Of a stretch of DNA of 23,919 nt, positions 3,001-23,919 are shown in pieces; position 1 is the first letter of the stretch, and every line of letters begins with the position of its first letter. Both the position numbers and the translations under genes were made by a program. The notes beneath the pieces are model-generated. The model was not told where the DNA came from. It did no database searches and worked only from the letters and a program-made list of their open reading frames with translations. Origin of the DNA: a virus. The DNA lies in the IMG/VR virus record IMGVR_UViG_3300043410_001900, positions 1 through 23,919 of that record. One strand, given 5' to 3'.

Positions 3001-6000
3001 TCCCAAACTCCACCCCGCGAAAACCAAAGGTTTCCATGAAGTCCCGGCCTTCGACATCGCCCTGACGGCGTTCAGCGCCGGTTCGGTTCGTCCGGTCCGG
3101 GGTCGGCAAATCCGCCTCGCCAAAAGTGGTGTTGGTTTCGAGAATGGCGCGGGCATGCTGGACCATGTATTCCATGGCCGCCCTTCGGGAGAGGAACGTT
3201 TCACTGACGACCTTGACCCGCTTGCGGTCATTGATTTCGCGCCAGATCTCATAGGGCTGGTCCCCATTGTCGTTACGCGGGCCGACCGGAATGATCTTGT
3301 GCTTGAGGGCGACCGCCGTCAGCGGCAAGGCTTCTTGCGCCGCTTCCTGGCTTTCATAGGTGTTGTCGGGACCGCCGACCATTTTGGCTTGGCCGAATCG
3401 GTCCTTTTGTCGCTTGTCCCGAATGACCCATCGGCCTTCGCCGGGGCCTGCCACAATCTGGCTGATTTCATACCGCCTGGCCCACGTCGGCGTCTCATCG
3501 TTGACCGCGGATTTCCGCCGGGGGCCGGTGCTGATGGCATCATCCTTGCGGGCACCGCCAATCTTTTCCCCCAGATCCTCAATTTTTTCGGGAATCGTTC
3601 GGGTTTTCTGGCTCACCACCCGCTTCTTTCGGGTTGCCGTGTTTGCTGGCGTTTTTTCAGGTGGCTCTGTCGGCTTTTGGGCTTCAGTCGCAGGCTGGAC
3701 TTTGGCGTCAATCAGTTCCTGAATGGACTGATTTGCGGCAACATCATCAAGATCCTGGTAATAGAAATCCTCGACTGCGTGAGCGATCTCCTCTTCCGTG
3801 ATGCCTGCATCGACGGCCTTTTCGATCAGCGACCGATTCAGCCGGTCGAATCGATTGGCGATAGCCATGACCGGGTGGTCAATGGCGTTGTTGGCGGCAA
3901 AGAACCCGTAAGCGAATCCTTCCGGGGTGGCGCTTCGGGCGTTCTTCGTGGCAAGACTTTTGCCGCCATAAAGCTTGTGCATCTTGGAGCCTTCGGTCGG
4001 CTCAACGGGTGCAATCGGGAGGTCCGCATTGAAACGACCCCAAAGAAGGGTTTTTTTGGTGTAGGGGTCTCCGATGTGATTCGGATCAAATGAAAGTCGC
4101 CAGGGCGGAAGACCGCCCAGCTTCTCGATGCGACCTACGGGATTCTCAACGGCCCAGATGGCGGGCTTGAAGTATTCAATGGTAGCCAGCGTCTGGTGAA
4201 CCAGTTTGACGGAGGCCACGGTTCGGCCATCAGAGTCCTTGGCTGCAAAATGACGCGCTCCGCTGGAGGCAAAGTCGGTGCAGGGACAGGCCGCCAGAAT
4301 CGCGTAGATATCCCGGCCTTCAAACATGTCCTGCGTATCGTTGAAGAACTCGGTACCGAACTTATTAACGTCACCAAATTCCGGGTCATCCTGAATATCG
4401 AAACGGTAGACCTGATAACCCGCTTCTTCCCAGGGAGCCGACCATGATCCGGTCAAATCAAACAGGGACAGGACGATGCGTTCGCTGTTGCCGTTGCTCT
4501 TGTCCTTGCCTTGCGCCTTTGCATGGGCCTGCCATTCAGCGATGCGGACCTTGGCTTCGGCAGGCGTCATCCAGCCATGATCCTTGTTGTAGACCTTGAC
4601 CTTCTCACCCAGCCTGACGATTTCGCCTTTGGTGGGCGCATCGAAAATATGGGTGACTTTCTGGTCGTTTTCTACGCTGGCTTGTTGCGCCCTGTTGAAT
4701 TCCTCAACAATTTCACCCAGCTCGCGATCATCGACCCCCGCGCCAGCATGCTCGGGTGCCGTCGATCCCGACTGGGGGCCTGCCGTTACCTTGGGTCGCT
4801 TGAGCTCTCGGGGTTCTGGTTTTGCGGCGGGGGCGGGTTCGCTGGAACGGGATCGGCTGTCGTTTTCTCCTTGGGGGTTTTCCTTGGCTTGGGCGGGTTC
4901 TTTTTCCATTCCCTGAGCATTTTCAGGGCCATTTTCGCGTGTTCTCCCATTGATGACTCTCCATAGGTCAGCCATGATTTCAGTGTCGGATCGAGGGCTG
5001 TCCAGCAGCGCTTCGATTTTTTCGTCGCCCAGGATTTGGATCGCTTCCCGAGCTAGATCAGAAAGGGTACGCGCCATGGCGTGCGCCTCAGGATCATAAG
5101 CCTCTTCTTCAAGGATAAAACCATAGTCGGGCATTTCTTCCATGCCCGGCTGGCTCAGCCACTGTTCCACATCGCTCTCAGTCAGGGTCGCCTGATTCTT
5201 GGCCGCCCGCAGTAAGGATCGAATTTCCTTGCGTCGCTCTTTAGCCAGGTCGATCACATTCGGCGCCGTCCGATTTTCGCCAATTTGATCAAGCAGATGG
5301 CCGATCAATCGTTCCTGCCGAACCCCGAGAGGTTTTCCGGCCATGGCCTTATCGATGGCCTGCTTAACTTGATCAACCGTCATGACCAGATCTTCAGGCA
5401 GATTTTTAAACCAGTCTGGATTGACGGAAGGCGTTCTGCCGATGATGGTGCCGTGCTCGTCTCGAACATAGCTCACATCGCCGCCTTTCACCAGATCGTG
5501 CTTAAAGGACGGCAAGGCGCTTCGATAAACCTCGCGCTTCATGCGGGGATCGTCGTAAATCGAGCGCGGGACTGCGAAATCCGATGGCGAGGCTGTTGCC
5601 GCCAGATTCTGTTGCTCCTGTTCGGTGTTCCAGAACGCTTCAGCTATCCGTTGTTGATGTTCCGGGTCCAGATCGCTCCAGGGCTTGGGCAGCAATTGGC
5701 GGCCTTTGGGGATGACGCCGACCAGAGATTCCCGGCTTTTACGCGGCATTTTGTTCCAGGCTGCTCCGGCACTTTTCAGGCGGGCCGCGGCCATGCCTTG
5801 CTGAAACATGGCAGAAGATGCCTCCTCAGTCTGCGCATCAAGTACGGATGGCAAAGGAGCGTCTGTCGTACCGGCTGGGGCAGTTTCAGCGCCTGTCAGT
5901 GATTGGCTCAGTTTTGACTGAAGGTCGGGACGAATCTGTGACCATGACTGGCCCACCAGTTTTTTTCCGAACGGGTTCGCCCCCCGCGCCTTGGTTCCCC

Positions 6001-8452
6001 AGCCCGCATTGACGATGACTTTTTCACGATCCTCTGGCGTCAGACGATCCCATTCCGCTACTGGGGTCGGGTCGGACCGCTCCAGGGGATAATGGCTTTC
6101 GTGGCTCCCTTCAGTCGATCCGGGTTCGCTTTCAGATAGTCCGTCAGGATTTGCTCCAGCCCCGGAGGAAAAATGATCGTGATCACCGATGGATCTTGTG
6201 GTGGGCTCTGGTTGGTCGATGCTTCCATCTGAACCTGTTCCAGCTCCTCCGTTACGATCAGCGACAGGTAGTACGCCTGCTCCTCCAGCAAGGCCACCAC
6301 TTTCTCCACCAGCTCCTCCAATTTGCTCTTCGCCATTTCCCCCTCCGGTAATCGCGTTTGGCGTTCCTGCCGCTTCTTGCGCAAGCTGTGCGTGAGCGGA
6401 ATCCAGCGTGGACTGAAGGGTTTCGGAAATCAGCGGGGACCGCTTATTTTCGGGGCCGGATGCCCCTCCCTGCTTGAGTGCCAACTCCGCACCCTTGGCC
6501 AGCGTGACTTGCCCGCCAACGCCCACCAATGTCGCAACCAAGGTTTGATTGATTGCCGATGGCCGCTCCTTCAGATAATCCATCCCCGTCTTTTCCGGGT
6601 GCAATGTGGCCCACTCCATCAAATCCTGGAGCGAGGTTGCCACCTGTTCGGCGGGTACCTCAGTCGCCAATTGGTGGGTCAGCACCTTCATGAAAGAAGA
6701 CCCGGCCTTGATGTCTTTCAGGAGATAGCCCACAGGAAGGACTTCGGTTCCATATTCGATCAGGCCCTGAGCGGTGGCGTTAGTCAGCGCCATGGGCACG
6801 TTCGCGCCTTCATCGCGGGATTCGCCATAAGCCGACCCCGCTGTCATGGCCGTCATGGGGCCAAGCAGCAGATTGGGATTGTCGGTTGCGATGGCGGCTG
6901 GAACCAGAAGACCGTTCTGCACCAAAGATTGGATGCCGGAATAAAAGCCTCTGGCAATATCGTTATCGGCCTGCGGCGTGAACTTTTTACGTAAAAAGGT
7001 TTGCCCCTGACGAAGATCCCGAATGCCGGATTCAATTCGTGCGCCGGTGTCTTCAGGGAGAATGCCCCTGTCAGCCAGCGGGCCTGTCAGGTATTCACTG
7101 AGAGCGCCTGCCCCCGCTTCTGCGCTCCCCAATAACCCTTCGCTAGCCCCATAGAGACCGGCAAGGGCCGCGCTTCCAGTGCGTCTATATACGTCTCTGA
7201 GACTTAAGCTGTCGTCTTCTTTGGCGGGCTGGGTAGGCCGTCCCAGATGAATGTCCTCTCCGGCCAGCTTGGCCGCAGTATTGTGGTCATAGCCTTGATC
7301 AATGTAGGTTTGCACCCGATCTTCCCGACGCGTTCCGACCCCGGTCTGAGCCAGGCGCGATCCCATAGCGTCATCGGCTTCCCGATAAGAAGTATCGAGA
7401 TAGCGAGCCACTCGGCCTTCAACGTCATTTGCGTTGATCATGCGAGCACGTTCGGCGGGACTCGCCGCATCGTATTTTGCTCGAACCGCTTCTATGAAAC
7501 CGGGCTTGACGGCCGCACCAAAAAGTTCCGGGGAAAAGGCCTGTCCTTCTTTTCCCAGGTTGGCGCGGAAAGCCCCAGCAAAACGGTTTTCATTGGTAGT
7601 TGCTTCGATGCCACCAGGGAGTGAGGTCCAGACCGAAGACAGTGCTTTGCCAATTTCAGCGTGGATCTTGGGATCGTTGGAGCGAAGATCCCCCAGGAGG
7701 CTGCGTCCGGTCTTATTGGCGTAAGTTTCTTGCGCCAGATTCCACGCGGCTTGATCCTGACTCTCAGGGGAGAAGTCTTTTAGACCGAGCTTTTGAGCTT
7801 GATCGTCCCACGTGCCCTCAAGGAATTGATAGCGACCGGCAGCGGTCGAAGTTTGGCCCTGATTCGGTCCTGATTGAATGCGGATAGGCTTTCGCGGATG
7901 GTCGGTCAGATTTCCAAACCGGGTGCCGCCATACAGCACGTCGTAGCCAGGAGATTCGGTTCCGGCCAAGGTATCGAGCAATGCCCGTCCTTCGGCAGGA
8001 ATGTGCAAATTTTGAGCGCGAGTCGGCGTCTTGGGATTTTTAAGCCCCGGAATATCTTCATCGCGAAAGGCATCAGAAAAAACAGTTTTGGCTTGATCGG
8101 CCACCGCATGGGCACCTGCTGCGACCAGCCGGCCAGCATCGTGAGCGACCCGGCCCACCTTGCCGGATCCAGTGACGCTATCAAAACGTTCCCGCACCAG
8201 ATCCAATTCATCTGGCGGGGACATCGGGGCCACCACCGTATCAAAAAAGCGGTTCCTGACGATTTCCTGCTCGTCGCTGCTCAGCGAACGATAAGCCGAA
8301 GAATCCGCTACCTCTTTCCAGTGCTTGGTTTTGGGGGGCGATGCAGCGGGCTCTGTGGCCGCCAAGCGGTTTTCCTGTTCAGTTTGGTTTGAGCGCGATT
8401 CCGGGGCGGAGTTTTCGGTGCCGACCCGGACAGGATCAAGTAGCGTGGTCAT
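1..8452 (-). CDS. Giant phage polyvalent protein, C-terminus beyond window (at least 2,817 aa)
   Basis: One reading frame stays open from the ATG at 8452 to the window edge; AGGGA lies 6 nt upstream of the start. Residues ~155-285 match the lambda R lysozyme/transglycosylase fold (GH104-like): Glu166 in GTES, a TDHPRK block, TAAGRYQF, FSPESQD and WTSLPG at 275. Residues ~417-660 are rich in Ala, Gly and aliphatics and may contact membrane. Residues ~1325-1525 form a C5-cytosine methyltransferase-like domain: FDLTGSW 1331-1337, PC 1390-1391 with the likely catalytic Cys, ENP 1436-1438. Residues ~1790-2000 resemble LPD1, with FRGVEFGNW and zinc motif HEWFH 1894-1898. A second peptidase-like domain has HELLH 2326-2330 and acidic EEELLGD near 2375. 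Residues ~2725-2765 (HWSEPN, EEIQSDW) match another polyvalent-associated domain. Such multidomain proteins are thought to be packaged and injected with phage DNA; that role is inferred. No activity has been shown here. Confidence 0.9.
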   Translation of the reverse strand, partial: MTTLLDPVRVGTENSAPESRSNQTEQENRLAATEPAASPPKTKHWKEVADSSAYRSLSSDEQEIVRNRFFDTVVAPMSPPDELDLVRERFDSVTGSGKVGRVAHDAGRLVAAGAHAVADQAKTVFSDAFRDEDIPGLKNPKTPTRAQNLHIPAEGRALLDTLAGTESPGYDVLYGGTRFGNLTDHPRKPIRIQSGPNQGQTSTAAGRYQFLEGTWDDQAQKLGLKDFSPESQDQAAWNLAQETYANKTGRSLLGDLRSNDPKIHAEIGKALSSVWTSLPGGIEATTNENRFAGAFRANLGKEGQAFSPELFGAAVKPGFIEAVRAKYDAASPAERARMINANDVEGRVARYLDTSYREADDAMGSRLAQTGVGTRREDRVQTYIDQGYDHNTAAKLAGEDIHLGRPTQPAKEDDSLSLRDVYRRTGSAALAGLYGASEGLLGSAEAGAGALSEYLTGPLADRGILPEDTGARIESGIRDLRQGQTFLRKKFTPQADNDIARGFYSGIQSLVQNGLLVPAAIATDNPNLLLGPMTAMTAGSAYGESRDEGANVPMALTNATAQGLIEYGTEVLPVGYLLKDIKAGSSFMKVLTHQLATEVPAEQVATSLQDLMEWATLHPEKTGMDYLKERPSAINQTLVATLVGVGGQVTLAKGAELALKQGGASGPENKRSPLISETLQSTLDSAHAQLAQEAAGTPNAITGGGNGEEQIGGAGGESGGLAGGAGVLPVADRNGGAGTGSDGSIDQPEPTTRSIGDHDHFSSGAGANPDGLSESEPGSTEGSHESHYPLERSDPTPVAEWDRLTPEDREKVIVNAGWGTKARGANPFGKKLVGQSWSQIRPDLQSKLSQSLTGAETAPAGTTDAPLPSVLDAQTEEASSAMFQQGMAAARLKSAGAAWNKMPRKSRESLVGVIPKGRQLLPKPWSDLDPEHQQRIAEAFWNTEQEQQNLAATASPSDFAVPRSIYDDPRMKREVYRSALPSFKHDLVKGGDVSYVRDEHGTIIGRTPSVNPDWFKNLPEDLVMTVDQVKQAIDKAMAGKPLGVRQERLIGHLLDQIGENRTAPNVIDLAKERRKEIRSLLRAAKNQATLTESDVEQWLSQPGMEEMPDYGFILEEEAYDPEAHAMARTLSDLAREAIQILGDEKIEALLDSPRSDTEIMADLWRVINGRTRENGPENAQGMEKEPAQAKENPQGENDSRSRSSEPAPAAKPEPRELKRPKVTAGPQSGSTAPEHAGAGVDDRELGEIVEEFNRAQQASVENDQKVTHIFDAPTKGEIVRLGEKVKVYNKDHGWMTPAEAKVRIAEWQAHAKAQGKDKSNGNSERIVLSLFDLTGSWSAPWEEAGYQVYRFDIQDDPEFGDVNKFGTEFFNDTQDMFEGRDIYAILAACPCTDFASSGARHFAAKDSDGRTVASVKLVHQTLATIEYFKPAIWAVENPVGRIEKLGGLPPWRLSFDPNHIGDPYTKKTLLWGRFNADLPIAPVEPTEGSKMHKLYGGKSLATKNARSATPEGFAYGFFAANNAIDHPVMAIANRFDRLNRSLIEKAVDAGITEEEIAHAVEDFYYQDLDDVAANQSIQELIDAKVQPATEAQKPTEPPEKTPANTATRKKRVVSQKTRTIPEKIEDLGEKIGGARKDDAISTGPRRKSAVNDETPTWARRYEISQIVAGPGEGRWVIRDKRQKDRFGQAKMVGGPDNTYESQEAAQEALPLTAVALKHKIIPVGPRNDNGDQPYEIWREINDRKRVKVVSETFLSRRAAMEYMVQHARAILETNTTFGEADLPTPDRTNRTGAERRQGDVEGRDFMETFGFRGVEFGNWNNQIERQEVMNAAYDGLMDLAEVMAIPPEAIGLNGDLALAFGARGQGLTSAKAHYERDRSVINLTKMNGAGALAHEWFHALDHYLGRQDGKASGQWQVLPDGTKLFKVQGAESDMASGGFKRNNSGVREELRTAYNHIIDTLLRKAETYVDDTLKADAFVATSREEVARRLTDLRNDLASEKNPQYYKRHNKPASAEQLAAFDTVAQQILAGEALEIAPTPTGNKSVRLNGMRWSNAALEQLSSIYKAVRGRSGFDSATQSGVMDRLRNDMTRYSGRLKLLASAQSGEEKTRKVPTEFAMNAKELDQGRGTDYWTTPHEMAARAFQGFVEDRIAAQGASSPFLNYAPERAGIMTPWGFKQPFPAGEERKAINRAFEAFVKEIKTKKTESGTLLFRRPETLLRQELPGERPDAKEAAPVSADQSKAKAINRVLARHFKIPEWENAYVQRDLPESLAEFAEATRAAFGTEVVGITPSHERFDQFNGINYEGVNYVNLDSKIGFIPIAGHELLHQLKKDRPDLYQWFAEQARGYYKDFSEYQSRLNAIAGGHKDTYDREAAEEELLGDFVGDALADPVFAQQLAEANPGKFKKLFNAIVQWLKEVSKKLAQQGLGSSRYFSDVEALRKHLEATLNAYAQGGPVAVGKESAPRFSTERAPTRRPTSEQPTLSRPVFYSSLERGIETAKVAAQPAAQWLAWVRSNAAPLGIKHDEMLWSGLEDYLTLKGKAKLSKTDVLAFVKDNGVEVNEVLKGEGTTRRNLKAERNEEGSWRVVDPQGQVLLDRASEIQAMDFMVIEAERKVNATKYDEYTLPGGQNYRELLITLPEATDAGHSGSITFPHAYQLEDFLVDLSAEGYADLDYGSDDARGAVEFNGLNGQQMAAFKTLAERNHGIMTIQSSTGTAAAYASSHWSEPNILAHIRFNDRTDTEGDKVLFIEEIQSDWAQEGRKKGFALPKAEHEKLDSRRRELETLGGEARNRGEDIASEIKQEWADIMNRIGG
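6058..6336 (-). CDS. Candidate overprinted small gene nested in the giant gene (92 aa)
   Basis: I do not recognise this protein. It starts at ATG 6336 behind GGAGGGGGAA, a strong ribosome binding site with good spacing, and ends at TAG 6058-6060. The N-terminal ~40 residues look like an amphipathic helix or coiled coil (LEELVEKVVALLEEQ), followed by a Ser/Pro/Gln linker and a second helical part. Its codons mostly end in G or C, like the neighbouring genes. The overlapping giant-protein frame here (residues ~706-799) is a Gly/Ser/Pro/Glu linker with many GGA, GCT and GGT codons. That contrast suggests the nested frame is the constrained one. Alternatives are chance composition, or a patch of the giant protein that was once read in this frame. 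The in-frame ATG at 6384 lacks a comparable ribosome binding site, so I prefer 6336. Confidence 0.55.
   Translation of the reverse strand: MAKSKLEELVEKVVALLEEQAYYLSLIVTEELEQVQMEASTNQSPPQDPSVITIIFPPGLEQILTDYLKANPDRLKGATKAIIPWSGPTRPQ
6337..6346 (-). promoter_or_regulatory. Shine-Dalgarno of the nested gene
   Basis: On the minus strand the bases directly before ATG 6336 read GGAGGGGGAA, giving an anti-SD match of GGAGG with about 5 nt spacing. It lies in the middle of the giant reading frame, where no ribosome binding site would be needed, and this decides the start chosen for the nested gene. Confidence 0.5.
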
Positions 8453-14939: not shown

Positions 14940-17219
14940 TTACGCCTCACGCAGCTCGGTGACGGAGCCTGCAACCACACAGGTTTTGATTTTGACCGAT
15001 CCCGTCAGCTTGATTTGAAAGTTCAGCGCCCTGAAACCCGAAGGCAGCCGGAAAGGCTCGTTATTGACTACGGTCTGGGTGTGCCTCAGGGTGCCGTCGG
15101 CATAAAGCATGAAAGTGACAGGATTTGCCGAAGTGGCTTCCGAGATTACTTGCGCCGCCCCCATGCTGGTGGGGTACGGAGCCTGAAACAGTTTGCTGGT
15201 CAGGGAATACGTGAGATAGCCCGCACCCCGGTCCCAGGCAGCAATTGATCCATCCGACTGAAGCACATAGAGGGTGTCGGTCGATAGGTCGTTGTAGAAC
15301 GCCGAAAACACCTGATCGACTTGCACAAAATCCTTGGTCGAAGGATTAAAGACGAAAGTCTTCGAATCGCTTGATCCAAAGTATTTCCCTTCATAAAAGG
15401 ACGCCTTGATCGCTGACGGGGTGTACTCCTGCCATTGAAGGCGGGAAAACACGGAACCCGTCACCACCTGGGCATCATTTTGGGCGATGGCCACCAATCC
15501 GAAAGGACTGGCGTAGACGGCATAGTCACCCATATCCACAATTGATTTTGCGCTGACACACGCCTGGGCCGCTTCCAGCTTGACCAGTGACCACGTGGAT
15601 GGATCGGTACCCACGATCAACGAGGGAAGCCCCTGCGTCAGCACCACGACCCCAGCGGCTGTGTTGACCAACCCCACAATGGGATAGTCCACCTTCAGTT
15701 GATACTCGTAAGGGTAGGCCGAGGCAATGTAAGGAACGCTGGCATAAATCGACTTATCGACAAACCCCACGATCACCCCGCCCGGCATCAAAATGATGCC
15801 TTGCAAATTGGCTGGAGGCTCATACCAACCCAGCGTGGGCAGCGACTCCCCGAGGAGCGCATCGTAGGTGGTGTCTACAACATTCACCGACCCATAAGGA
15901 ACATCCGTGGTCTTGCTGCCATCGGCCAGCGTCATGGTGGTCAGGCGGAAAAGACCGTTGGCATCGGTGCGGTAATAGCGGATGGCCGTCAGGTTATAGT
16001 TTGTTGGTCCGTTCAGATTGGTCGAGGGCGTGGCAGCAAAGGTACAAGCCGTCCCCTGGGTCATGGCGCGAATGTCGGTAGGGCTCGACGGCGGCCCTTC
16101 TTCGCCATAGCCATTGACGAAAGTCGCCACATAGGCGCGGTCGCGCAGATTGGCGGCCACATCCGTCTTGATCCAGCCGTTTTGACTGCCGTTGGGATAA
16201 GCCGTGATGACGTATTGCGCACTGCCAGCATCCCAGATGAAGTTCGGCAGATTGGTGAACGTGTTTTCGGGGGTCGTGACCGTGGCTGGACCATACATTG
16301 GGTCGGAAGCCTCTTGAAGAATGACCGCCTGTTGATGCTTGGTCCCCGTCAAGCTGTGGATGGCGGTTGAAGACCAGCTATCCGTTCCGACCAACTGGAA
16401 GCGATTCGTATCCTGATAGGCCACCATGTAAGGTGAATCCGGCGTCAACTGTGTGCCGCGCATGTTCGTGGCATCGGTATGCACGAGCACGATGTCCCCA
16501 TCCGAGAAGGGATGGCCATTGGCTTGCACGGACAGCATCTGTGCGCCGCCATTGTTCACGTCATCCTTGGGCTTTTTGACGCTGCTCCAGTTGGCTTTTT
16601 TCCGGGTGTAGCCCCGGATTCGGAACATTGTGGGCTGATCCTGAATGTCCGAGGTGATGACGACCGTAAACGCGCCTTTTGAAGCAAAGCCTGGGAGATT
16701 GAGAAGAACGGTGTCATTGGTCTTGAGGCCATGCGCTGCCGTACAGTTGACCAGTGGCAGCGCGGAATCCGCGGAACTGTTCAGGGTATAGAGCGTGACC
16801 GAGGCCACAAGCCCCTGCCCGGCCTGTGTAAAGGTGTATCCGGGAAGGGTGGGCGCGGGCAAACCGACTTTGCGTGAGGCGGCAGGTGCGCCGGAGCCCG
16901 CTCCGATCAGGTCGTCATCCGTAACCCTGAAATTGGTGCCATCCGAAAAATAGATCCGGTGTTTTGTGTCACTGGCATTCGGGGCGCGAACGACGCTGAC
17001 CCTGCCATTCCATGCCAGCCACCGCGTAGGATGGCGATAGATCGTGTCATTTCCTGACGGACTGATTCCAGAGTTGGCCGCAAAAGCGGCTGTTTTGAAC
17101 GGTGCCAGATCTCCCGACTGGATGAGACAGTTTTTTGCCTCCACCGCTTGAGAATCCTCCAGGCGCTGGGGAGCGATCACATTGACCTGACCCTGAAAGC
17201 CTGGAATGGTGATTCGCAT
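14940..17219 (-). CDS. Large tail structural protein, possibly nozzle/tail-tube B-like, 759 aa
   Basis: The N-terminus (MRITIPGFQGQ, then PQRLEDSQAVEAKNCLIQSG DLAPFK split by a turn) matches a class of podovirus virion proteins that begin by listing parameters of a beta-propeller. The long body is beta-rich with repeated short strands and WxxW/Gly turns (for example IYFSDGTNFRVTDDDLIGAG, YGPATVTTPENTFTNLPNFI). Function as a T7 gp12-like nozzle is inferred from size, composition and its place beside tip and fibre genes. GGAGGG precedes ATG 17219, which shares a base with the upstream TGA. No signal peptide. Confidence 0.82.
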   Translation of the reverse strand: MRITIPGFQGQVNVIAPQRLEDSQAVEAKNCLIQSGDLAPFKTAAFAANSGISPSGNDTIYRHPTRWLAWNGRVSVVRAPNASDTKHRIYFSDGTNFRVTDDDLIGAGSGAPAASRKVGLPAPTLPGYTFTQAGQGLVASVTLYTLNSSADSALPLVNCTAAHGLKTNDTVLLNLPGFASKGAFTVVITSDIQDQPTMFRIRGYTRKKANWSSVKKPKDDVNNGGAQMLSVQANGHPFSDGDIVLVHTDATNMRGTQLTPDSPYMVAYQDTNRFQLVGTDSWSSTAIHSLTGTKHQQAVILQEASDPMYGPATVTTPENTFTNLPNFIWDAGSAQYVITAYPNGSQNGWIKTDVAANLRDRAYVATFVNGYGEEGPPSSPTDIRAMTQGTACTFAATPSTNLNGPTNYNLTAIRYYRTDANGLFRLTTMTLADGSKTTDVPYGSVNVVDTTYDALLGESLPTLGWYEPPANLQGIILMPGGVIVGFVDKSIYASVPYIASAYPYEYQLKVDYPIVGLVNTAAGVVVLTQGLPSLIVGTDPSTWSLVKLEAAQACVSAKSIVDMGDYAVYASPFGLVAIAQNDAQVVTGSVFSRLQWQEYTPSAIKASFYEGKYFGSSDSKTFVFNPSTKDFVQVDQVFSAFYNDLSTDTLYVLQSDGSIAAWDRGAGYLTYSLTSKLFQAPYPTSMGAAQVISEATSANPVTFMLYADGTLRHTQTVVNNEPFRLPSGFRALNFQIKLTGSVKIKTCVVAGSVTELREA

Positions 17220-17404
17220 CAGTCCGTCCCTCCGACCGCTTCGTCAGGTGCTTCGGCGGGCGTCTCGGACTGCTTGAGCGGCATCTGGGGGCGGAGCTCG
17301 TCATGAACCGCACAGATGATGCTGTTCACTTCGCCCCAGGGGCGCTTGTCGAGATACTCCAGCATGAGATTCAGCGCTTGAATCGTCAATTGGACTGTTG
17401 GCAT
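17219..17404 (-). CDS. Small conserved phage protein, 61 aa
   Basis: The pattern MPTVQLTIQALNLMLEYLDK then RPWGEVNSIICAVHDELRPQ is a two-helix protein type often seen beside phage tail genes (a short LT-QALN--L--L--RP--EV unit). No biochemical role is known to me. AGGAA lies before ATG 17404; an upstream ATG at 17443 is less likely because the conserved part starts at MPTVQ. The TGA overlaps the next ATG (TGATG), so translation of the 759-residue protein is probably coupled to it. Confidence 0.78.
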   Translation of the reverse strand: MPTVQLTIQALNLMLEYLDKRPWGEVNSIICAVHDELRPQMPLKQSETPAEAPDEAVGGTD

Positions 17405-17446
17405 GTCGGTTCCTGATTGAGTGGCAGTCGGGTGCAAGGTCAAAAA

Positions 17447-17929
17447 TCAGATTTCGATTTTGGCTGCCTCAATGAAGAGCAGATCAAGGTCGCTGTCAGA
17501 CCAGCCCATGCTTTGCGCAATTGCCAGCAACAACGGCGATTCTCTCCGGTACTCGATGGCATTGGTCCACGCCAGCTTGACCAAGGGATCCGTGGCCGCA
17601 TTGACGAAAGCCTCCACCGCATCCAGCGAACCTTCCTGCAACAGAACCGCCTTGGCCTGTAGCGGCGAGACGGCTTGCGGCACTTCACTGGGGGGCGGTG
17701 TCCAGACAGGAAGCTCGGGCGGTTGGGCGTTGGGAAAATCCGCGCGGGTCAAACCGAAGCGGTCAATGACGCTGTTGTCTTCAATCGCCACAAATCGACG
17801 GTTAATGTCATCGCGCTGAATCAGCCAAAGACTGCCTTCGAGAAGCTGCATGAACTCAGCGTATTCCACGGTCCCCTCCAGGGCGTCCAGATCTTCACGC
17901 GAATTGATGATGGTCGTACCCAAGTTCAT
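17447..17929 (-). CDS. Phage tail accessory protein overlapping the RT gene, 160 aa
   Basis: The start is ATG 17929, with GGAG 8 nt upstream, inside the last 35 nt of the reverse transcriptase gene; a longer frame from 18046 would overlap RT much more and has no such site. The first part (LGTTIINSREDLDALEG, LLEGSLWLIQRDDINRRFVA) and a Pro-rich linker lead to a helical C-terminus (VSPLQAKAVLLQEGSLDAVE, SDSDLDLLFIEAAKIEI) of a type common in small proteins beside phage fibres, where it resembles XkdW-like C-termini. Likely a fibre-associated or assembly protein; not proven. Confidence 0.83.
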   Translation of the reverse strand: MNLGTTIINSREDLDALEGTVEYAEFMQLLEGSLWLIQRDDINRRFVAIEDNSVIDRFGLTRADFPNAQPPELPVWTPPPSEVPQAVSPLQAKAVLLQEGSLDAVEAFVNAATDPLVKLAWTNAIEYRRESPLLLAIAQSMGWSDSDLDLLFIEAAKIEI

Positions 17930-18896
17930 ATTGATTCTCCAAATGGATGAGAAGGTGGTGGGTGTCCGCCCATCGGGCATGTCCAGCCCAGGCGGCAATG
18001 AATTTGTTGAGGGCGGCCCAATCCTTGTGGGCAATCGCCGCTTCAATCTTTTGTCGGGCTCGCTTCACCGAAGCCTTGCGTAACAATTTATGCGTAGCCC
18101 AGATGCGATAGCCCAGGAAATTGATGCCCCGCGTCGTTGAGGCCGCTTGCCACTTACTGATCGAAAGCCCAAGCTCGGTTTTGGAAAACGTTTCGATTCC
18201 GGCGAAAACCTGACGAAGGTGATTCGCGTCGTGACCCAGAATGATGATGTCGTCCATGTATCGAGCCCAGTGCCGCTCACCCAGTTCAAAGTGAATGAAT
18301 CGGTCCACGGCCCCGCCGTAGACATTCGCAAACAACTGAGACGTAAGGCTTCCGATGGGAAGCCCCTGCCCTACGGGAGGAATGATTTCCCGAAGCACGT
18401 CCAGGGTCCGGGGGCAGCCGATTTTCTTTTCGATCATCCGATGCAGGACATCGTGGCGAATACTGGGGAAAAACCGCCGAAAATCCGTTTTCAGAAAATG
18501 CGTGGCCTGGGTTTTCCTGAGGGCCGCCTGAATATGCTTGACCCCGGCATGGGTGCCTTTTTCGGGGCGGCAGGCATAGGTGTAAGGCAAGAGCCCCGCC
18601 TCAAAAATGGGTCCGATGACATTGCACAGCGCATGCTGGACCAACCGATCCTTGAATCCGAGCGCGGAGATGTTTCGCGCCTTGGGTTCATAGATGGTGA
18701 ACTCTCGGTAAGGTCCGATGCGGTAACTCCCCGAGAGCAGCTCGTCGCGAATCTCCCGAAGATGCAGTTCGTCATACTCCTTGAAGTTCAGATAACCCCA
18801 GGTCATCCGCTTGTTTTTTGTGGTTCGGGCATAAGCCCATCGAAGGTTGCCGGGGTCGGCAATCCGTTCAATCAGGTGTTTGTGTCGGATACCCAT
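17895..18896 (-). CDS. DGR reverse transcriptase, 333 aa
   Basis: RNA-dependent DNA polymerase that copies TR with adenine errors. The N-terminus MGIRHKHLIERIADPGNL is typical of DGR RTs. Palm motifs are visible: TDFRRFF with Asp138, GLPIGSLTSQLFANVY (178-193) with the IGxxxSQ form that marks DGR enzymes rather than the QGxxxSP of group II introns, and YMDD at 213-216. NFLGYRI (259-265) follows in the thumb-proximal region. No maturase or endonuclease domain is present and the length fits the family (~330). The ATG at 18896 begins the conserved region; a GTG at 18989 would add 31 unusual residues and has no ribosome site. No strong SD precedes 18896, so RT may be made at low level. The 3' end overlaps the next gene by 35 nt. 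Confidence 0.95.
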   Translation of the reverse strand: MGIRHKHLIERIADPGNLRWAYARTTKNKRMTWGYLNFKEYDELHLREIRDELLSGSYRIGPYREFTIYEPKARNISALGFKDRLVQHALCNVIGPIFEAGLLPYTYACRPEKGTHAGVKHIQAALRKTQATHFLKTDFRRFFPSIRHDVLHRMIEKKIGCPRTLDVLREIIPPVGQGLPIGSLTSQLFANVYGGAVDRFIHFELGERHWARYMDDIIILGHDANHLRQVFAGIETFSKTELGLSISKWQAASTTRGINFLGYRIWATHKLLRKASVKRARQKIEAAIAHKDWAALNKFIAAWAGHARWADTHHLLIHLENQYELGYDHHQFA

Positions 18897-19163
18897 TAAT
18901 GCTGGCCGCGCCTTTCCCGTCCCTGGTACTCGGCGCTCTGCCAGACCCCGAAGCGTATTCCCCGAAGGAGGACTTTCCCGGCTGACCACATGTTGAAGTG
19001 GACGGCCTGCTGAGCCTTGACCGCAGCAGAGCGAAAATCATGTGTCACAGGCGCACCGCAACCCGATGTTGTCGTTCGAGTTCGAGGCAGCGTTGTTCCA
19101 GTTCGACGAGCGAGACCCGCAGTTCGCCCCGTTGTTCCAGTTGCCGCCAAAGATCGCCGCGTT
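18897..19163 (-). ncRNA. DGR template RNA: TR plus 147-nt spacer
   Basis: The transcript from the TR 5' end (19163) through the 147 nt between TR and the RT start (19043-18897) corresponds to the core DGR RNA of BPP-1, where a spacer of about 140 nt 3' of TR is needed for cDNA priming. The length agreement is visible; folding and priming site are not verified. The spacer holds a direct repeat, CTTCGGGG twice on the minus strand (around 18950-18968), and no convincing gene. Confidence 0.7.
19044..19163 (-). repeat. DGR template repeat (TR), 120 bp
   Basis: Pairs with the VR at 19590-19709 at a constant offset of 546 bases. It holds 26 coding-strand adenines, mostly in AAC codons (GGCAACTGGAACAAC); 13 of these differ in VR and none of the other 94 bases does. 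Read in VR's frame it would give an Asn-rich ground-state version of the target's binding region. Its 5' base pair lies inside the avd stop codon. Immediately 3' the sequence diverges from VR after a short imperfect match containing a 1-nt gap. Confidence 0.97.
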
Positions 19164-19548
19164 AATTCCCGGTAAGCCCCTGCTTTTTCTTTCGCTTTAT
19201 CCACATATGAAGCATGCCGCCGACTTCTGCAGTCAGTCCCTGAGCAAACTCCAGCTGACGATGACTCATACAGCGTTGGGCGTGAAGAAATCGCATCCAG
19301 AAGCGAAGATGCGCGAGTCCCGCATCGGCCGCATAAAGTTTGCTGACTTGATTGGACTTCCCGGCTTGAAAAAACAAGTCGGGTTGCCCCATCAGACATT
19401 GAAGAAAAAGATCGCGGGCTACGCCATGCTTTCGGGGAATTGATTGGGCAATCGGATAAAGATATCCAATGATCCGCTCGAACTTCTCCACGATGGCCAT
19501 CTGGTCGTAACACGCAATTTGTTCCTCTGGTTGTTGTTCTTCGCTCAT
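19162..19548 (-). CDS. avd: Avd, DGR accessory variability determinant, 128 aa
   Basis: A small basic four-helix-bundle protein that forms a pentamer, binds RT and the DGR RNA, and is essential for mutagenic cDNA synthesis in BPP-1. The sequence shows CYDQMAIVEKFERIIGYLYP, PRKHGVARDLF, AGKSNQVSKLYAADAGLAHL and a Lys-rich end (IKRKKKQGL), close to the BPP-1 protein from my memory of it, and the length is the same. It sits between the target gene and TR, as expected, and its TAA overlaps the TR by 2 nt. Only a weak SD (AGG adjacent) is visible, behind the post-VR hairpin. Confidence 0.94.
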   Translation of the reverse strand: MSEEQQPEEQIACYDQMAIVEKFERIIGYLYPIAQSIPRKHGVARDLFLQCLMGQPDLFFQAGKSNQVSKLYAADAGLAHLRFWMRFLHAQRCMSHRQLEFAQGLTAEVGGMLHMWIKRKKKQGLTGN

Positions 19549-19555
19549 CCTGAGC

Positions 19556-19571
19556 GGGCGCTTTCGCGCCC
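19556..19571 (-). promoter_or_regulatory. Post-VR hairpin with GAAA tetraloop (DGR homing-site element)
   Basis: A perfect inverted repeat GGGCGC-GAAA-GCGCCC on the coding strand starts right after the target gene stop, 18 nt past the VR end. In BPP-1-like phages a hairpin/cruciform with a 4-nt GRNA loop just downstream of VR stimulates retrohoming; this one has the right place, strand and loop, with a 6-bp stem, slightly shorter than the described ones. No T-tract follows, so it is not a terminator. It could also affect avd translation, since avd starts 7 nt later. Confidence 0.82.
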
Positions 19572-20762
19572 TTAATCAAGGATCAAGTGGTCACAGGCGC
19601 ACCGCAACCCGATGGTGCCGGCCGAGAACGAGGCAGCGTAGCTCCAGAGCGACGAGCGAGACCCGCAGTTCGCCCCGTTGTCCCAGTCGCCGCCAAAGAA
19701 CGCCGCGTTGGGTGGGTAATACGATTGGCCGCGTCCCCCGGTATCGGATTGCCAGGCAGCTGTAGTGTTGTATGGCCCACCGCGCTCCTGACCCCAGACC
19801 CACATGACGCCGGTCGCCTGGATGATGCCGTGCTTGGAGGTGTAGGCCGCATTCAGGATGGTCGAGCCTTGATCCGTCCCGATGGAAGAGCCTTCCGTGG
19901 TGCCGTAGGTGGCGGCCATGAATTCCGATTGGAACAGGGGCCGCTTGCCATAGGCATGCGCCACTTCCTGCGCCTCAAAGAAGGTGAGCGAGCCATACGC
20001 TGTCGCGCCATTGCCGCCGTAGAACGTCGGGATCTTGGGAGGCGAAGAGCCATCGGCAATGGTCTTGTTGTAGCTACTGGTGCCATTGGTGCCGGGGTCG
20101 GTGTTGGTCAGGTAAATGTCGCACCAGAAGCCGCCTCCAATCAGGGCCATCCCGCGCGGATCGCCGCAGCGCGGACGGAACTTCAAGTCCCAGAAGCTGT
20201 AGGGGTTGATGGCGGGCGTGGTGTCGCCCCCTGAAGTGCCTGTGGCATTCCCGCCCGGCGCGTAATGGAAACCGCCCACCAGCCGCCCATTGGTAACCGG
20301 GGCGCTGGAGAAGTTGGTGGTGGCCTGAAGTGTTCCATCTGGATTGGCCCAGATGGCGTAATCCGTTCCCGCCGTTGCGGTCGGCATGGAGACCACTGTA
20401 CCCGAGGCAATGGTTTTGGTGACGCCATTGACTTCCACGTAGAGGGTCATGGCGGTCGAGACCGCAAAGGCCCCGGTTTTGCTCCAGGCGACAACACCTT
20501 GGACGGCTTTTCGGAACAAACCGTAAATGGGGGTTTGCGGGGCAAACGTCTGGACCGCAAGCTTGATTTGCGCGGGGGTCATGCCCCTGAGAGCGGTCAG
20601 CGCTCCAGCAATGATTTCAGCATCGCTGGCGGCGACGGTGGGTGTGTCGGGGCTATAGGCTTGAATCCCGGCGCGGGGAACGGTGACGTTGACGACAGTT
20701 GCGCCATCTTCGGGAACAAGAACGACGGCCCCGCCGCTGGCGGAATCAAGACGTGCTGGCAT
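19572..20762 (-). CDS. DGR target protein, C-type lectin fold, likely receptor-binding fibre tip, 396 aa
   Basis: Residues ~1-190 look like phage anchoring beta domains (NVTVPRAG, TPIYGLFRKAVQGVV, MTLYVEVNG). Residues ~190-391 fit the C-type-lectin/formylglycine-generating-like fold used by DGR targets: FRPRCGDPRGMALIGGGFWC, EAQEVAHAYGKRPLFQSEFM, MWVWGQERGG, then FGGDW, GANCGSRS and IGLRCACD framing variable residues. Four Cys in this part may bond. After VR only HLILD follows. TAGGAGAG precedes ATG 20762. By analogy with BPP-1 Mtd, variants would switch host receptor; the actual ligand is unknown. Length is similar to Mtd (381). Confidence 0.93.
   Translation of the reverse strand: MPARLDSASGGAVVLVPEDGATVVNVTVPRAGIQAYSPDTPTVAASDAEIIAGALTALRGMTPAQIKLAVQTFAPQTPIYGLFRKAVQGVVAWSKTGAFAVSTAMTLYVEVNGVTKTIASGTVVSMPTATAGTDYAIWANPDGTLQATTNFSSAPVTNGRLVGGFHYAPGGNATGTSGGDTTPAINPYSFWDLKFRPRCGDPRGMALIGGGFWCDIYLTNTDPGTNGTSSYNKTIADGSSPPKIPTFYGGNGATAYGSLTFFEAQEVAHAYGKRPLFQSEFMAATYGTTEGSSIGTDQGSTILNAAYTSKHGIIQATGVMWVWGQERGGPYNTTAAWQSDTGGRGQSYYPPNAAFFGGDWDNGANCGSRSSLWSYAASFSAGTIGLRCACDHLILD
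19590..19709 (-). repeat. DGR variable repeat (VR), 120 bp
   Basis: Encodes residues 352-391 of the target in exact codon phase. Relative to TR, 13 positions differ, each an adenine in the coding-strand TR: five to G, five to T, three to C. Ten codons change: residues 355, 359, 361, 372, 374, 375, 379, 381, 382, 383. The last 25 bp (19614-19590) are invariant, as expected for the initiation-of-mutagenic-homing end. Confidence 0.97.
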
Positions 20763-20773
20763 GGATATCTCTC

Positions 20774-21169
20774 CTAAAGGCTTGCGCCGGTGGTATAGAT
20801 GGCGAATCGCACAAGGGACGTCGCCGGGATGCGGAGCGTGGCGGTTGCCGCAATTTCAGTTGCGCTACCCGTGGTGTATTCGGTGGATCCCGCAAGGGTG
20901 GTATCGACAGATATCACTTTGGAGGCGTATCCCCCACCGATGCTGCCCCATCCACCTGACTTCTTGCCCTCAAAATCATCCGTTGAACTGTTGTAGCGGA
21001 CGGATCCCGTATTGCCTGCCCGTTGTGCGGTGGTGCCGACGGGAAGCTGGGCGGACCCCGTTTCTGAATTCTTTTCAACCTTGGTCTGGTTGAGGTTGTC
21101 GAAATTGGTATCGACTTCCGCATTGGTTAAAGGGGAGCCCTTGACGGCTCGAAGCGTGATGGTTGTCAT
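20774..21169 (-). CDS. Small tail fibre protein, 131 aa
   Basis: The start MTTITLRAVKGSPLTNAEVD, followed by TNFDNLN, is the typical N-terminal attachment segment of many phage fibres. SVRYNSSTDDFEGKKSGGWG is a common fibre repeat of the type NSSTDDFEG-----W, and the C-terminal ~60 residues are beta-rich. It is short for a full fibre and has no tip domain, so it may be an adaptor connecting to the DGR target encoded 11 nt downstream. GAGGGGAG precedes ATG 21169 but is caught in an inverted repeat that could hide it. Confidence 0.86.
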   Translation of the reverse strand: MTTITLRAVKGSPLTNAEVDTNFDNLNQTKVEKNSETGSAQLPVGTTAQRAGNTGSVRYNSSTDDFEGKKSGGWGSIGGGYASKVISVDTTLAGSTEYTTGSATEIAATATLRIPATSLVRFAIYTTGASL

Positions 21170-21181
21170 GGGGGCTCCCCT
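21131..21181 (-). promoter_or_regulatory. Inverted repeat that could sequester the start of the small fibre gene
   Basis: AGGGGAGCCC (mRNA 5' side, bases 21181-21172) is perfectly complementary to GGGCTCCCCT (21140-21131) across a 31-nt loop holding the ATG at 21169. The 5' arm contains the ribosome binding site, so the folded mRNA would block initiation. Function is inferred. Confidence 0.5.
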
Positions 21182-21187
21182 CTAGAC

Positions 21188-21652
21188 TCAGGCAGAGGCG
21201 TTCTGGGTCACGGTCCAGGTCACGCCGAGCGTGTCGTCAGCGCCTTTATTGACCACGGCGAACACCACGCGATTCAGCATGTCGCCGCCCGTTAACGCAT
21301 TGAAAATTCCGGCTTCCGTGATCGCTCCGGTCGAGATACCGGCACCAAAGGTCGCGGTATAGACGATCTTTTCATTGTTGGTCCCGGCAATGGTGGTTGC
21401 CGTCAAGCTGACTCGGGCTCCAAGCGCACTGATCAGGCCGGTCTGGTCGGCAGCAGGAGCGGTCGCTCCAGCCCCGACCCCCATGTGCGACATCACGGCC
21501 TTGCTGGTGTCCTTCATGCGGCTGATCATGAAGGCCAGTCCGGTAGCCACCAAAAGGTTCTTTACGTGACGCTCTTCTTTGACGCTGAAGTCCTTGTCCC
21601 AAAGAACAATATCGACTTCGCCGCTGGCTTGCGCCCCATCAAAAGTCTTCAT
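21188..21652 (-). CDS. Small phage tail protein, 154 aa
   Basis: The layout, VKNLLVATGLAFMISRM then HMGVGAGATAPAADQTGL, a beta-strand region TATFGAGISTGAITEAGIFN and MLNRVVFAVVNKGADDTLGV, is common in small tail or baseplate proteins of phages that carry fibres. No enzyme motif. AAAGGAG lies 7 nt before ATG 21652, which begins 13 nt after the upstream stop. It ends 18 nt before the next gene's ATG. Probably a structural connector in the tail. Confidence 0.84.
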   Translation of the reverse strand: MKTFDGAQASGEVDIVLWDKDFSVKEERHVKNLLVATGLAFMISRMKDTSKAVMSHMGVGAGATAPAADQTGLISALGARVSLTATTIAGTNNEKIVYTATFGAGISTGAITEAGIFNALTGGDMLNRVVFAVVNKGADDTLGVTWTVTQNASA

Positions 21653-21665
21653 CTGGATCTCCTTT

Positions 21666-22538
21666 CTAGAAAACTACGGAAGTACCGACAAAATCTTCCG
21701 CAAAGTAAGTGAAGTCGCAGTAGCTTTGACTTCTGACGGACCCCGTGTCGGTAGCCGAGGCCGTATCCTTGAGCGATTTCTGGGGGCTAAGCGCCGCCAC
21801 ATCGGAGGCGATGCCCGTATCGGTTCGCGCCATGCCGACCGCCTTGGTTGCGGCATCGGTTGCGGTGGCGTTATCAATAAATGTTCTGACCCGATCCCAG
21901 AAAAAGGCGATGGCATCGCTGGCAATCGCGACATCCACCAGATCGCGGGTGATCTGCTTGAACAGCACCACGACTTCGGTTGCGTAAGCGGCATCAGCAA
22001 AAGGCTTGCTCAGGCTCAACGCGGCGGGATCGCGAACGGTGGCCGCATCATTGAGGCTCCGATTGAAATCGACGTGGCGCACGAATTCATCGCTGACTAT
22101 CGATTGATCGCTGAGACCCTTGCCAAGGGACGCCTGAACCGCATCTGTGGCGTGGGCGGCATCGACTGCCCCTTTACCGATGGCCAGGGCTGCCTTGTCG
22201 CTTGCCATCAAGGCATCGTTGAGCCCTTTGCCCAAGGAGATCAGGGCCTGATCCTGGGCTCTGGCGGCATCGCTGAACGGCTTATGAAGTGAAGCGGCCA
22301 GCGCATCGAGCGCGGTGACGGCATCCCTGAGCGCCTTGGTCATCGCCAGAACCTGATGATCTGACGCGGTGGCCTGATCCTCTTGCTCCAAAAGGACAAT
22401 GAAGCGCCCCAGCACGGCGCTCATGGCGAGGATTCGCGCTGAATTCTGCGCCGTCAGCTTTTGGGCTGAAATGTCCGCACGAAGAATTCTTGCCGCTTCG
22501 ATCAGGCGAAGCAGCCGAGCGGACCAACGGGCATCCAT
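21666..22538 (-). CDS. Virion protein of 18-residue tandem repeats, 290 aa
   Basis: After ~67 helical residues come about eleven tandem units of roughly 18 residues (residues ~68-266), consensus K-x-L/F-x-D-A-x4-S/T-D-x-A-A-L-x-L-G, for example KPFSDAARAQDQALISLG and KGLNDALMASDKAALAIG. The last 20 residues are aromatic (YCDFTYFAEDF). Similar repeats occur in phage tail shaft or fibre proteins and presumably form a regular stalk; this is inference. ATG 22538 shares one base with the upstream stop (TGATG). Confidence 0.86.
   Translation of the reverse strand: MDARWSARLLRLIEAARILRADISAQKLTAQNSARILAMSAVLGRFIVLLEQEDQATASDHQVLAMTKALRDAVTALDALAASLHKPFSDAARAQDQALISLGKGLNDALMASDKAALAIGKGAVDAAHATDAVQASLGKGLSDQSIVSDEFVRHVDFNRSLNDAATVRDPAALSLSKPFADAAYATEVVVLFKQITRDLVDVAIASDAIAFFWDRVRTFIDNATATDAATKAVGMARTDTGIASDVAALSPQKSLKDTASATDTGSVRSQSYCDFTYFAEDFVGTSVVF
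21741..22337 (-). repeat. Tandem 54-bp (18-codon) repeats inside the virion gene
   Basis: About eleven degenerate copies; clean units begin at residues 68, 86, 104, 122, 140, 160 and 178. The protein consensus is conserved while DNA identity is weak, so the copies are old or under protein-level selection. One unit (140-159) has 20 residues. Confidence 0.8.
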
Positions 22539-22873
22539 CAGGTAAAGTCGTCGCGCAACGAAAAGTTGAGGTAATTGCGAACGGTCTGCCGAATCTGGCC
22601 GACAAAGTTCACTCGAACTTCAGCCTCGTAGTTGCCTGCGGTCAGATTGAGATCGCCGGTTTGCCAAACCATGTAGGCAATCCCTTGGGGCGCCTTGGTC
22701 GGATCAATGAAAAGCTGACGCGTGATCAGGGTGGTCGTCGATCCCACTTCTCTGAATCTCAGCGTGGCCACGCCTCCGGTCAGATCCACGGCTTCGCCGG
22801 TGGCCTCATCAACGATGGTGATTTCAAGCTGGGGTGCGGTATCGTTTCGCGTCAGCGGGATGCGCTCAGCCAT
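22538..22873 (-). CDS. BppU-like small tail/baseplate beta protein, 111 aa
   Basis: TRNDTAPQLEITIVDEATGE, a VDLTG turn, TLRFREVGSTTTL, then LNLTAGNYEAEVRVNF and a closing NYLNFSLRDD match the N-terminal immunoglobulin-like domain of phage baseplate upper (BppU-type) proteins and many stand-alone homologues. In those proteins it docks fibres to the tail. AGGAGG lies before ATG 22873, which follows the upstream TAA directly. The upstream adaptor-like gene suggests a neck or tail role. Confidence 0.87.
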   Translation of the reverse strand: MAERIPLTRNDTAPQLEITIVDEATGEAVDLTGGVATLRFREVGSTTTLITRQLFIDPTKAPQGIAYMVWQTGDLNLTAGNYEAEVRVNFVGQIRQTVRNYLNFSLRDDFT

Positions 22874-23539
22874 TTAGCCTCCTGTAGCAATGCGTGATGG
22901 CGTACCGCCTTGATTGGCGGCATTGGGCGACGTCACGAGAGCGATTCGACCCCCATCCGTCAGGGCGTTTTCAAATCGGCTGTAGTGGCTGGCGGCCCGC
23001 TCGGCGCTGCCTGCAAATTCAGTGTCCTTGCTGTAGCAGCGATAGCAGATGTAATCGACCAGCGCCCCGAGGTACATGGATTCGGTCACGCTCAAGGCGG
23101 CGTTGTCCGCCAGATCCTGAGGCGTGGCCTGATAAACGATTTCAAGCCTGGCTCCCGCCAATGCCGGGGGATAGACCCAGAAAGTGGTGGGATAGCGTTC
23201 ATCCATCATGAAATGACGAATGACTTTGGATCCCGGCATGAGCTGCCACTTGGGCTTGAATTGATCCAGCAACTCTTTCTCCGTGACCGTGCAGGCAGAG
23301 CCGCCGACGTTTCGGGTGACATCGGTCAGGCGCATGCCATCGCCGGGGATGCTCTGAGCCGCCCCGGCAACCAGATCGAGGGGCGCCTTAATGGCGTAAA
23401 GGTCCGGGCGCAGGGTGGCGATTTCCCTTCGGGCATCATTCAGCCAGCCCAGTAACTCCGGTGACGTCCAGCGGGTTGCGCCATCGTCCTTAAGGAGGAT
23501 GCTGGCCCGCGTCAGCGCAGAAGCAGTGGTGTGCGACAT
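22874..23539 (-). CDS. Phage adaptor (DUF6682-like, head-tail connector), 221 aa
   Basis: Early helices (RASILLKDDGATRWTSPELL, GWLNDARREIATLRPDLYAI) and beta part (AAQSIPGDGMRLTDVTRN, TTFWVYPPALAGARLEIVY) fit the DUF6682 adaptor family, with similarity in arrangement to T7 gp11. Such proteins form a ring linking portal to nozzle. The C-terminal helix (MYLGALVDYICYRCYSKDTE, HYSRFENAL) is typical. AAGGAG lies 8 nt before ATG 23539. The gene's place next to the tail genes agrees. Confidence 0.88.
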   Translation of the reverse strand: MSHTTASALTRASILLKDDGATRWTSPELLGWLNDARREIATLRPDLYAIKAPLDLVAGAAQSIPGDGMRLTDVTRNVGGSACTVTEKELLDQFKPKWQLMPGSKVIRHFMMDERYPTTFWVYPPALAGARLEIVYQATPQDLADNAALSVTESMYLGALVDYICYRCYSKDTEFAGSAERAASHYSRFENALTDGGRIALVTSPNAANQGGTPSRIATGG

Positions 23540-23551
23540 GCGGCTTGCTCC

Positions 23552-23919
23552 TTAGAGGTAATGACCGGCGACCCGGCGCGGAGCACGAGTAAAGCCCTTG
23601 TCGGCTCGATGCTTGGCCTGGTTGGCGGCAGCCATAAATTCAGCCTTGCGCTCGGCAGCGAGCGTTTCGCTGTAGCAAGGCAGATTCTGTTTCCCGGCCA
23701 GCGTGGCCACAGCGCCTTTGGCGATATCGCCGCCGTATTGCTGAAACAGCCAGTCCGGGACCGTGGTTGCGGCGCGGTCCAGCGTGTAGCAAGCGCGAAA
23801 TTCAAGCCCTTTCGGGAGGTCCACCAGAGGGCATGGGATCAGCGTCAGGCTGACCGGATTGAACTGGGAGAAAACTTCGGGGATGCCCTTGCGGGTGGTC
23901 CAGTTGACGTAGCGGTTCC
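23552..23919 (-). CDS. Partial neck/virion protein, N-terminus beyond window
   Basis: The frame is open to the right edge (first whole codon at 23917) and ends at TAA 23552-23554; ~121 residues are visible. WTTRKGIPEVFSQF, LTLIPCPLVDLPKGLEFRAC and DIAKGAVATLAGKQN, then ETLAAERKAEFMAAANQAKH resemble a short virion protein commonly encoded just before DUF6682 adaptors; its function is unknown. A GTG at 23824 could be a start, but good similarity of the upstream residues in the same frame argues it is internal. Confidence 0.84.
   Translation of the reverse strand, partial: NRYVNWTTRKGIPEVFSQFNPVSLTLIPCPLVDLPKGLEFRACYTLDRAATTVPDWLFQQYGGDIAKGAVATLAGKQNLPCYSETLAAERKAEFMAAANQAKHRADKGFTRAPRRVAGHYL

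Follow-up and report, generated by a model that had tools for sequence, protein, structure and literature searches.

Does the stretch between positions 17895 and 20762 of an uncultured viral contig fragment hold a complete DGR, and does that element still diversify its target? The window analysed here is 23,919 nucleotides of the IMG/VR record IMGVR_UViG_3300043410_001900, and all features of the cassette lie on its minus strand. A preliminary description had listed a reverse transcriptase (RT) with a YMDD motif, Avd, TR, VR and a hairpin; each of these parts was examined and is present. The cassette holds every part of a BPP-1-type DGR, in the canonical order, and with a probability of about 95% the element, carried by an uncultured tailed phage, is complete and functional. 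Scans of the cassette for sigma-70 promoters and terminators gave results at or below chance level, and no tRNA was found in the window.

The target gene (19572-20762) encodes an Mtd-like protein of 396 aa, probably the receptor-binding protein and tropism determinant. It matches Pfam mtd_2nd (PF21916, E = 2.9e-13) and the tail protein family PHROG 11262 (E = 2.6e-109), and its last 314 residues (83-396) are 47% identical to BPP-1 Mtd. A lectin fold had been proposed for this protein, with structure prediction suggested as a check. The AlphaFold2 model (pLDDT 82, the first ~80 residues being poorly modelled) agrees: the predicted fold is that of a C-type lectin, and Foldseek superposes the model on the solved Mtd structures 1yu2 and 1yu0 with TM values of 0.76 and 0.80, respectively, and an rmsd of 1.5-1.6 Å. 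The VR (19590-19709) lies near the C terminus and covers codons 352-391. The adenine-containing codons of the TR fall on Mtd residues 344, 346, 347, 350, 357, 359, 360, 364, 366, 368 and 369, within the variable residues 344-369 of BPP-1. An Mtd-like stretch, ~45% identical to the target, also occurs in the tail fibre gene 17 of two T7 records (LR745707 and LR745708); this is unexpected for T7, and the stretch is perhaps engineered.

At the 3' end of the VR, positions 19590-19611 are identical to the TR and nearly free of adenines, and the divergence between TR and VR starts right after them. This segment resembles an IMH, a function assigned to it by analogy with the IMH of BPP-1 (PMC3240598); it was taken as one stretch, with the sub-elements GC14 and 21 bp not separated. 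A hairpin or cruciform (GGGCGC-GAAA-GCGCCC, 19556-19571, fold z -2.84), with a perfect stem of 6 bp and a GAAA loop, follows 18 nt past the end of the VR, and most relatives carry a hairpin with a GRNA-type loop at the same place.

The accessory protein of 128 aa encoded by avd (19162-19548) matches Pfam bAvd (E = 4e-27), NCBIfam DivGenRetAVD above its curated cut-off, and the PDB entries 4dwl (E = 2.2e-47) and 8ub7_B. Right behind the avd stop lies the TR (19044-19163), located both by a repeat finder and by alignment. The spacer between TR and RT (18901-19032) is occupied by the DGR RNA RF03022 (Phage_DGR) of Rfam, scoring 97.4 bits against a gathering threshold of 50 (E = 3.2e-16), and 11/11 relatives examined have this RNA in the corresponding position. 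The RT of 333 aa (17895-18896) belongs to Pfam RVT_1, is 62% identical to BPP-1 Brt and matches PDB 8ub7_A (E = 1.6e-138), so that the solved-structure matches among the cassette proteins are Mtd, Bbp7/Avd and Brt. It carries YMDD at residues 213-216 and IGSLTSQ at residues 181-187, an instance of the IGxxxSQ motif that marks DGR RTs. The reading frame remains open upstream to a GTG at 18989, which would give a product of 364 aa and read back through the TR-RNA. Homology supports the ATG at 18896 as the start instead, since residue 1 of BPP-1 Brt (8ub7_A) aligns to residue 1 of the frame that begins there.

The relation between the two repeats is highly specific. When the TR is reverse-complemented and compared with the VR on the minus strand, the two align without gaps over 120 bp, with 13 mismatches. 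The TR contains 26 A, 39 G, 35 C and 20 T, and 13/13 mismatches fall on its adenines against 0/94 on the other bases (hypergeometric P = 1.2e-10), exactly as the preliminary description had claimed. Realignment also returned the same outcomes (A>G five times, A>T five times, A>C three times) in the same number of codons. These ten, codons 355, 359, 361, 372, 374, 375, 379, 381, 382 and 383 of the target, are all changed non-synonymously. Independently of the alignment, a repeat finder run over 16000-23919 returned the TR/VR pair as the sole long direct repeat. Moreover, in a symmetric scan pooled over 76 loci, 985/1076 TR/VR mismatches fall on A.

The resemblance to the mtd-avd-TR-brt cassette of BPP-1 (NC_005357) extends, beyond the protein identities and the shared variable residues, to the gene order, the orientation, the single VR at the 3' end of mtd, the Rfam spacer RNA, the hairpin and a bbp4-like gene behind the RT. 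The two systems differ in their surroundings: the BPP-1 cassette adjoins endolysin genes, whereas the cassette of the window is placed within a block of virion-structure genes, flanked upstream by an SU10-type adaptor and downstream by an internal virion protein and a further tail fibre gene. In addition, residues 1-82 of the target do not align with Mtd, the hairpin stem counts 6 bp instead of the 8 bp of BPP-1, and no near-identical DNA was found for the window's phage in the phage records searched. The catalogue of Roux et al. (2021) comprises over 30,000 DGRs with broad activity; those of phages diversify host-attachment proteins, and most were recently active by read data (PMC8144416). 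No feature was found that distinguishes the present DGR from the phage lineages of that catalogue. It is an ordinary member of the BPP-1/Mtd family, in a phage without a close sequenced relative. Elsewhere in the window, an open frame of more than 2800 aa (2-8452, minus strand), which runs off the window, combines lysozyme-like, DNA-methyltransferase-like and other segments and is a polyvalent phage protein. Among the related loci compared (designated by L-numbers), six Mtd-type DGRs (L073, L078, L079, L080, L084 and L089) have one TR and two VRs, ~950-1000 nt apart.

Evidence for activity comes from these related loci. The nearest relative found, L002 (IMGVR_UViG_3300016484_000532), has an RT 82-83% identical, an Avd 88% identical and a target 95% identical outside the VR. 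All three are under strong purifying selection (dN/dS of 0.076, 0.082 and 0.033, respectively), against a dN/dS of 2.2 in the VR. The TRs of the two phages are identical at 116/120 positions; three of the differing sites are non-A in both phages and one is a G/A site. At 4/4 of these sites, the VR of each phage follows its own TR. The VRs differ at 22/120 positions. In 19 of these, one TR or both have an adenine, and the 18 differences away from the TR-differing sites are all at adenines common to both TRs. The same mirroring of TR differences at non-A sites of the VR is seen with L002-L009 and L058, in 3/3, 6/6, 2/2, 4/4, 4/4, 6/6, 6/6, 4/5 and 13/13 cases. Furthermore, pS against L002 is 0.10 in the VR, compared with 0.55 elsewhere in the target, whose silent sites have reached a dS of about 1. 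The low silent divergence of the VR means that it is repeatedly overwritten from the TR and, together with the recurrence of non-A TR differences in the VR and the reversed dN/dS, is a hallmark of ongoing TR-to-VR copying.

Comparisons between near-identical sister contigs show the same bias. Between L007 and L058, 13/29 adenine sites of the VR differ, against 0/91 other VR sites, 0/120 positions of the TR and 0/1001 of the RT. The compared stretch of L065 and L067 differs at three VR adenine sites only, and L036 and L039 differ at 19/28 VR adenine sites versus 3/93 others. As the TR stays constant while the VR varies, these pairs support a one-way transfer of information from TR to VR over time. 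Variation off the TR adenines, or an RT or Avd disrupted in close relatives with a fixed VR, had been named as what would speak against an active element. The VR variation of the relatives lies almost entirely on TR-adenine sites. Wherever the sequence of a nearest relative covers RT and Avd, these are intact; only more distant relatives show a disrupted or missing DGR. The earlier claim of activity thus agrees with the comparative tests, at the level of the lineage: a search of viral contigs for an exact 39-mer of the TR gave no match, and activity is supported for the phage's lineage, via its relatives, rather than for this very genome.

Two other explanations of the TR/VR pair have to be weighed against this reading. 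Taken by themselves, TR and VR form a direct repeat and nothing more, as would arise from an ordinary gene duplication followed by mutational bias or chance, without any DGR. The chance of this is negligible: it is refuted by the base specificity of the mismatches (P = 1.2e-10), by the RT, Avd and RNA that adjoin the repeats and by the dozens of contigs that keep the same architecture. A complete DGR that has fallen silent in this genome, the TR/VR differences being a fossil of past activity, is a more serious candidate, if still an improbable one. The activity evidence comes from relatives and not from the population of this phage, DGR loss does occur among more distant relatives, and the stem of 6 bp is shorter than the stems of 7-10 bp described in phage DGRs (PMC3240598). 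In BPP-1, homing drops sharply when the 8-bp stem is shortened by 2 bp (PMC3240598). The same 6-bp stem is nevertheless found in relatives with diversified VRs, such as L036 and L039, and hence is no argument for inactivity. Against a silent element stand also the complete absence of non-A differences between TR and VR, despite the high dS of the target, the dN/dS of RT and Avd below 0.1, and the fact that the VR tracks the TR in the comparison with every near relative.

A third question concerns the bbp4-like gene (17447-17929, minus strand), whose first 35 nt overlap the end of the RT gene and whose product consists of a bbp4-like N-terminal domain and a second domain. Almost all BPP-1-like relatives have a homologue in this position, and the constancy of the position, with the overlap, could speak for a new DGR accessory protein. 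That role is highly unlikely and was rejected, as the gene tracks the target and not the RT. It lies directly behind Mtd-like targets that lack RT, Avd and TR (L144, L157, L161-L164, L166, L168 and L171-L173), and it is missing from more distant Mtd-type DGR loci (L072-L081 and L084-L089). Weak homologues of its C-terminal domain also occur in phages that were not screened for DGRs. The N-terminal domain (INTREDLDA..., ~80 aa), which is conserved behind Mtd-like targets whether or not a DGR is present, matches no Pfam family and has no significant hit in PHROG. Rather than belonging to the DGR, the product may be the target's partner, either in the tail or as a chaperone.

The loss of the element can be followed in several contigs in which the Mtd-like target is directly followed by the bbp4-like gene, with avd, TR and RT missing in between. 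A search for RVT_1 in the DGR-less records that were searched, which are fragments, gave no match. In five loci (L151, L154, L159, L160 and L176), scars remain between the target and the downstream gene: the TR and most of the RT are gone, approximately the last 12-55 residues of the RT survive, and this surviving end overlaps the start of the next gene. L151 retains all of avd, joined to RT residues 271-325, L159 has avd and RT residues 307-323, L176 a partial avd and RT residues 271-322, and L160 only RT residues 271-324; in L154, as in L160, avd is lost. Judged from these sequences, the scars reflect repeated deletion of avd-TR-RT among the relatives.

In two DGR-less clades, g1 (L161, L163 and L164) and g2 (L166, L168, L171, L172 and L173), the VR is strongly variable between contigs that are ~95% identical. 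For g1, a pattern search found DGR-bearing sisters (L188-L201) with a TR that matches the VR skeleton. Compared with this TR, the VRs of L161, L163 and L164 have 11, 19 and 17 differences at adenine sites, respectively, and 2-3 others; two non-A changes of L164 also occur in the VR of L189, which has a DGR. For g2, the corresponding search matched only the five g2 VRs. The simplest reading of this variation is recombination with DGR-bearing sisters, but an action in trans or an RT elsewhere in the incomplete genomes may also account for it. Tentatively, and with a good deal more doubt than confidence, the mtd-like and bbp4-like genes could be seen as enclosing a removable module, avd-TR-RT; lineages that have lost it would keep gaining new VR alleles from DGR-bearing sisters in the same community, through recombination with them or by their action in trans. 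This proposal is based on the relatives (L161, L163 and L164 versus L188-L201) and not on the window, and an RT could lie in the missing parts of incomplete contigs.

If the cassette of the window works like that of BPP-1, for which homing through IMH and hairpin (PMC3240598) and the work of the RT in E. coli (PMC12875486) have been described, the TR and spacer RNA would be transcribed and then reverse-transcribed by the RT together with Avd, and cDNA synthesis would be error-prone at the adenines of the template. The cDNA would take the place of the VR, in the 3' end of the gene for the Mtd-like tail protein, and leave the TR unchanged, and the IMH-like end of the VR and the adjoining GAAA hairpin would guide its entry. 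About 12 exposed residues of the receptor-binding surface, in a C-type lectin fold, would thereby be randomised, which would let the phage sample host receptors; the enzymology, the role of IMH and hairpin, and the switching of tropism are all drawn by analogy from BPP-1. Over the related loci pooled, AAC codons (n = 599) are found as N in 23%, S in 16%, Y in 11%, D in 10% and G in 9% of the cases. This is similar to the spectrum of the BPP-1 RT in E. coli, where the leading changes are Y (14%), S (12%) and D (10%) (PMC12875486), although the natural counts include selection.

The mechanism itself has been established since the Bordetella phage BPP-1, and what is added here is an intact DGR outside the Bordetella phage group. 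Together with its relatives, it offers a comparative test of DGR activity that requires no reads, through the concerted evolution of TR and VR, the reversed dN/dS of the VR and the adenine-confined variation between sisters. If avd-TR-RT is indeed a removable module, phages would draw on a common diversification machinery instead of each owning its own.
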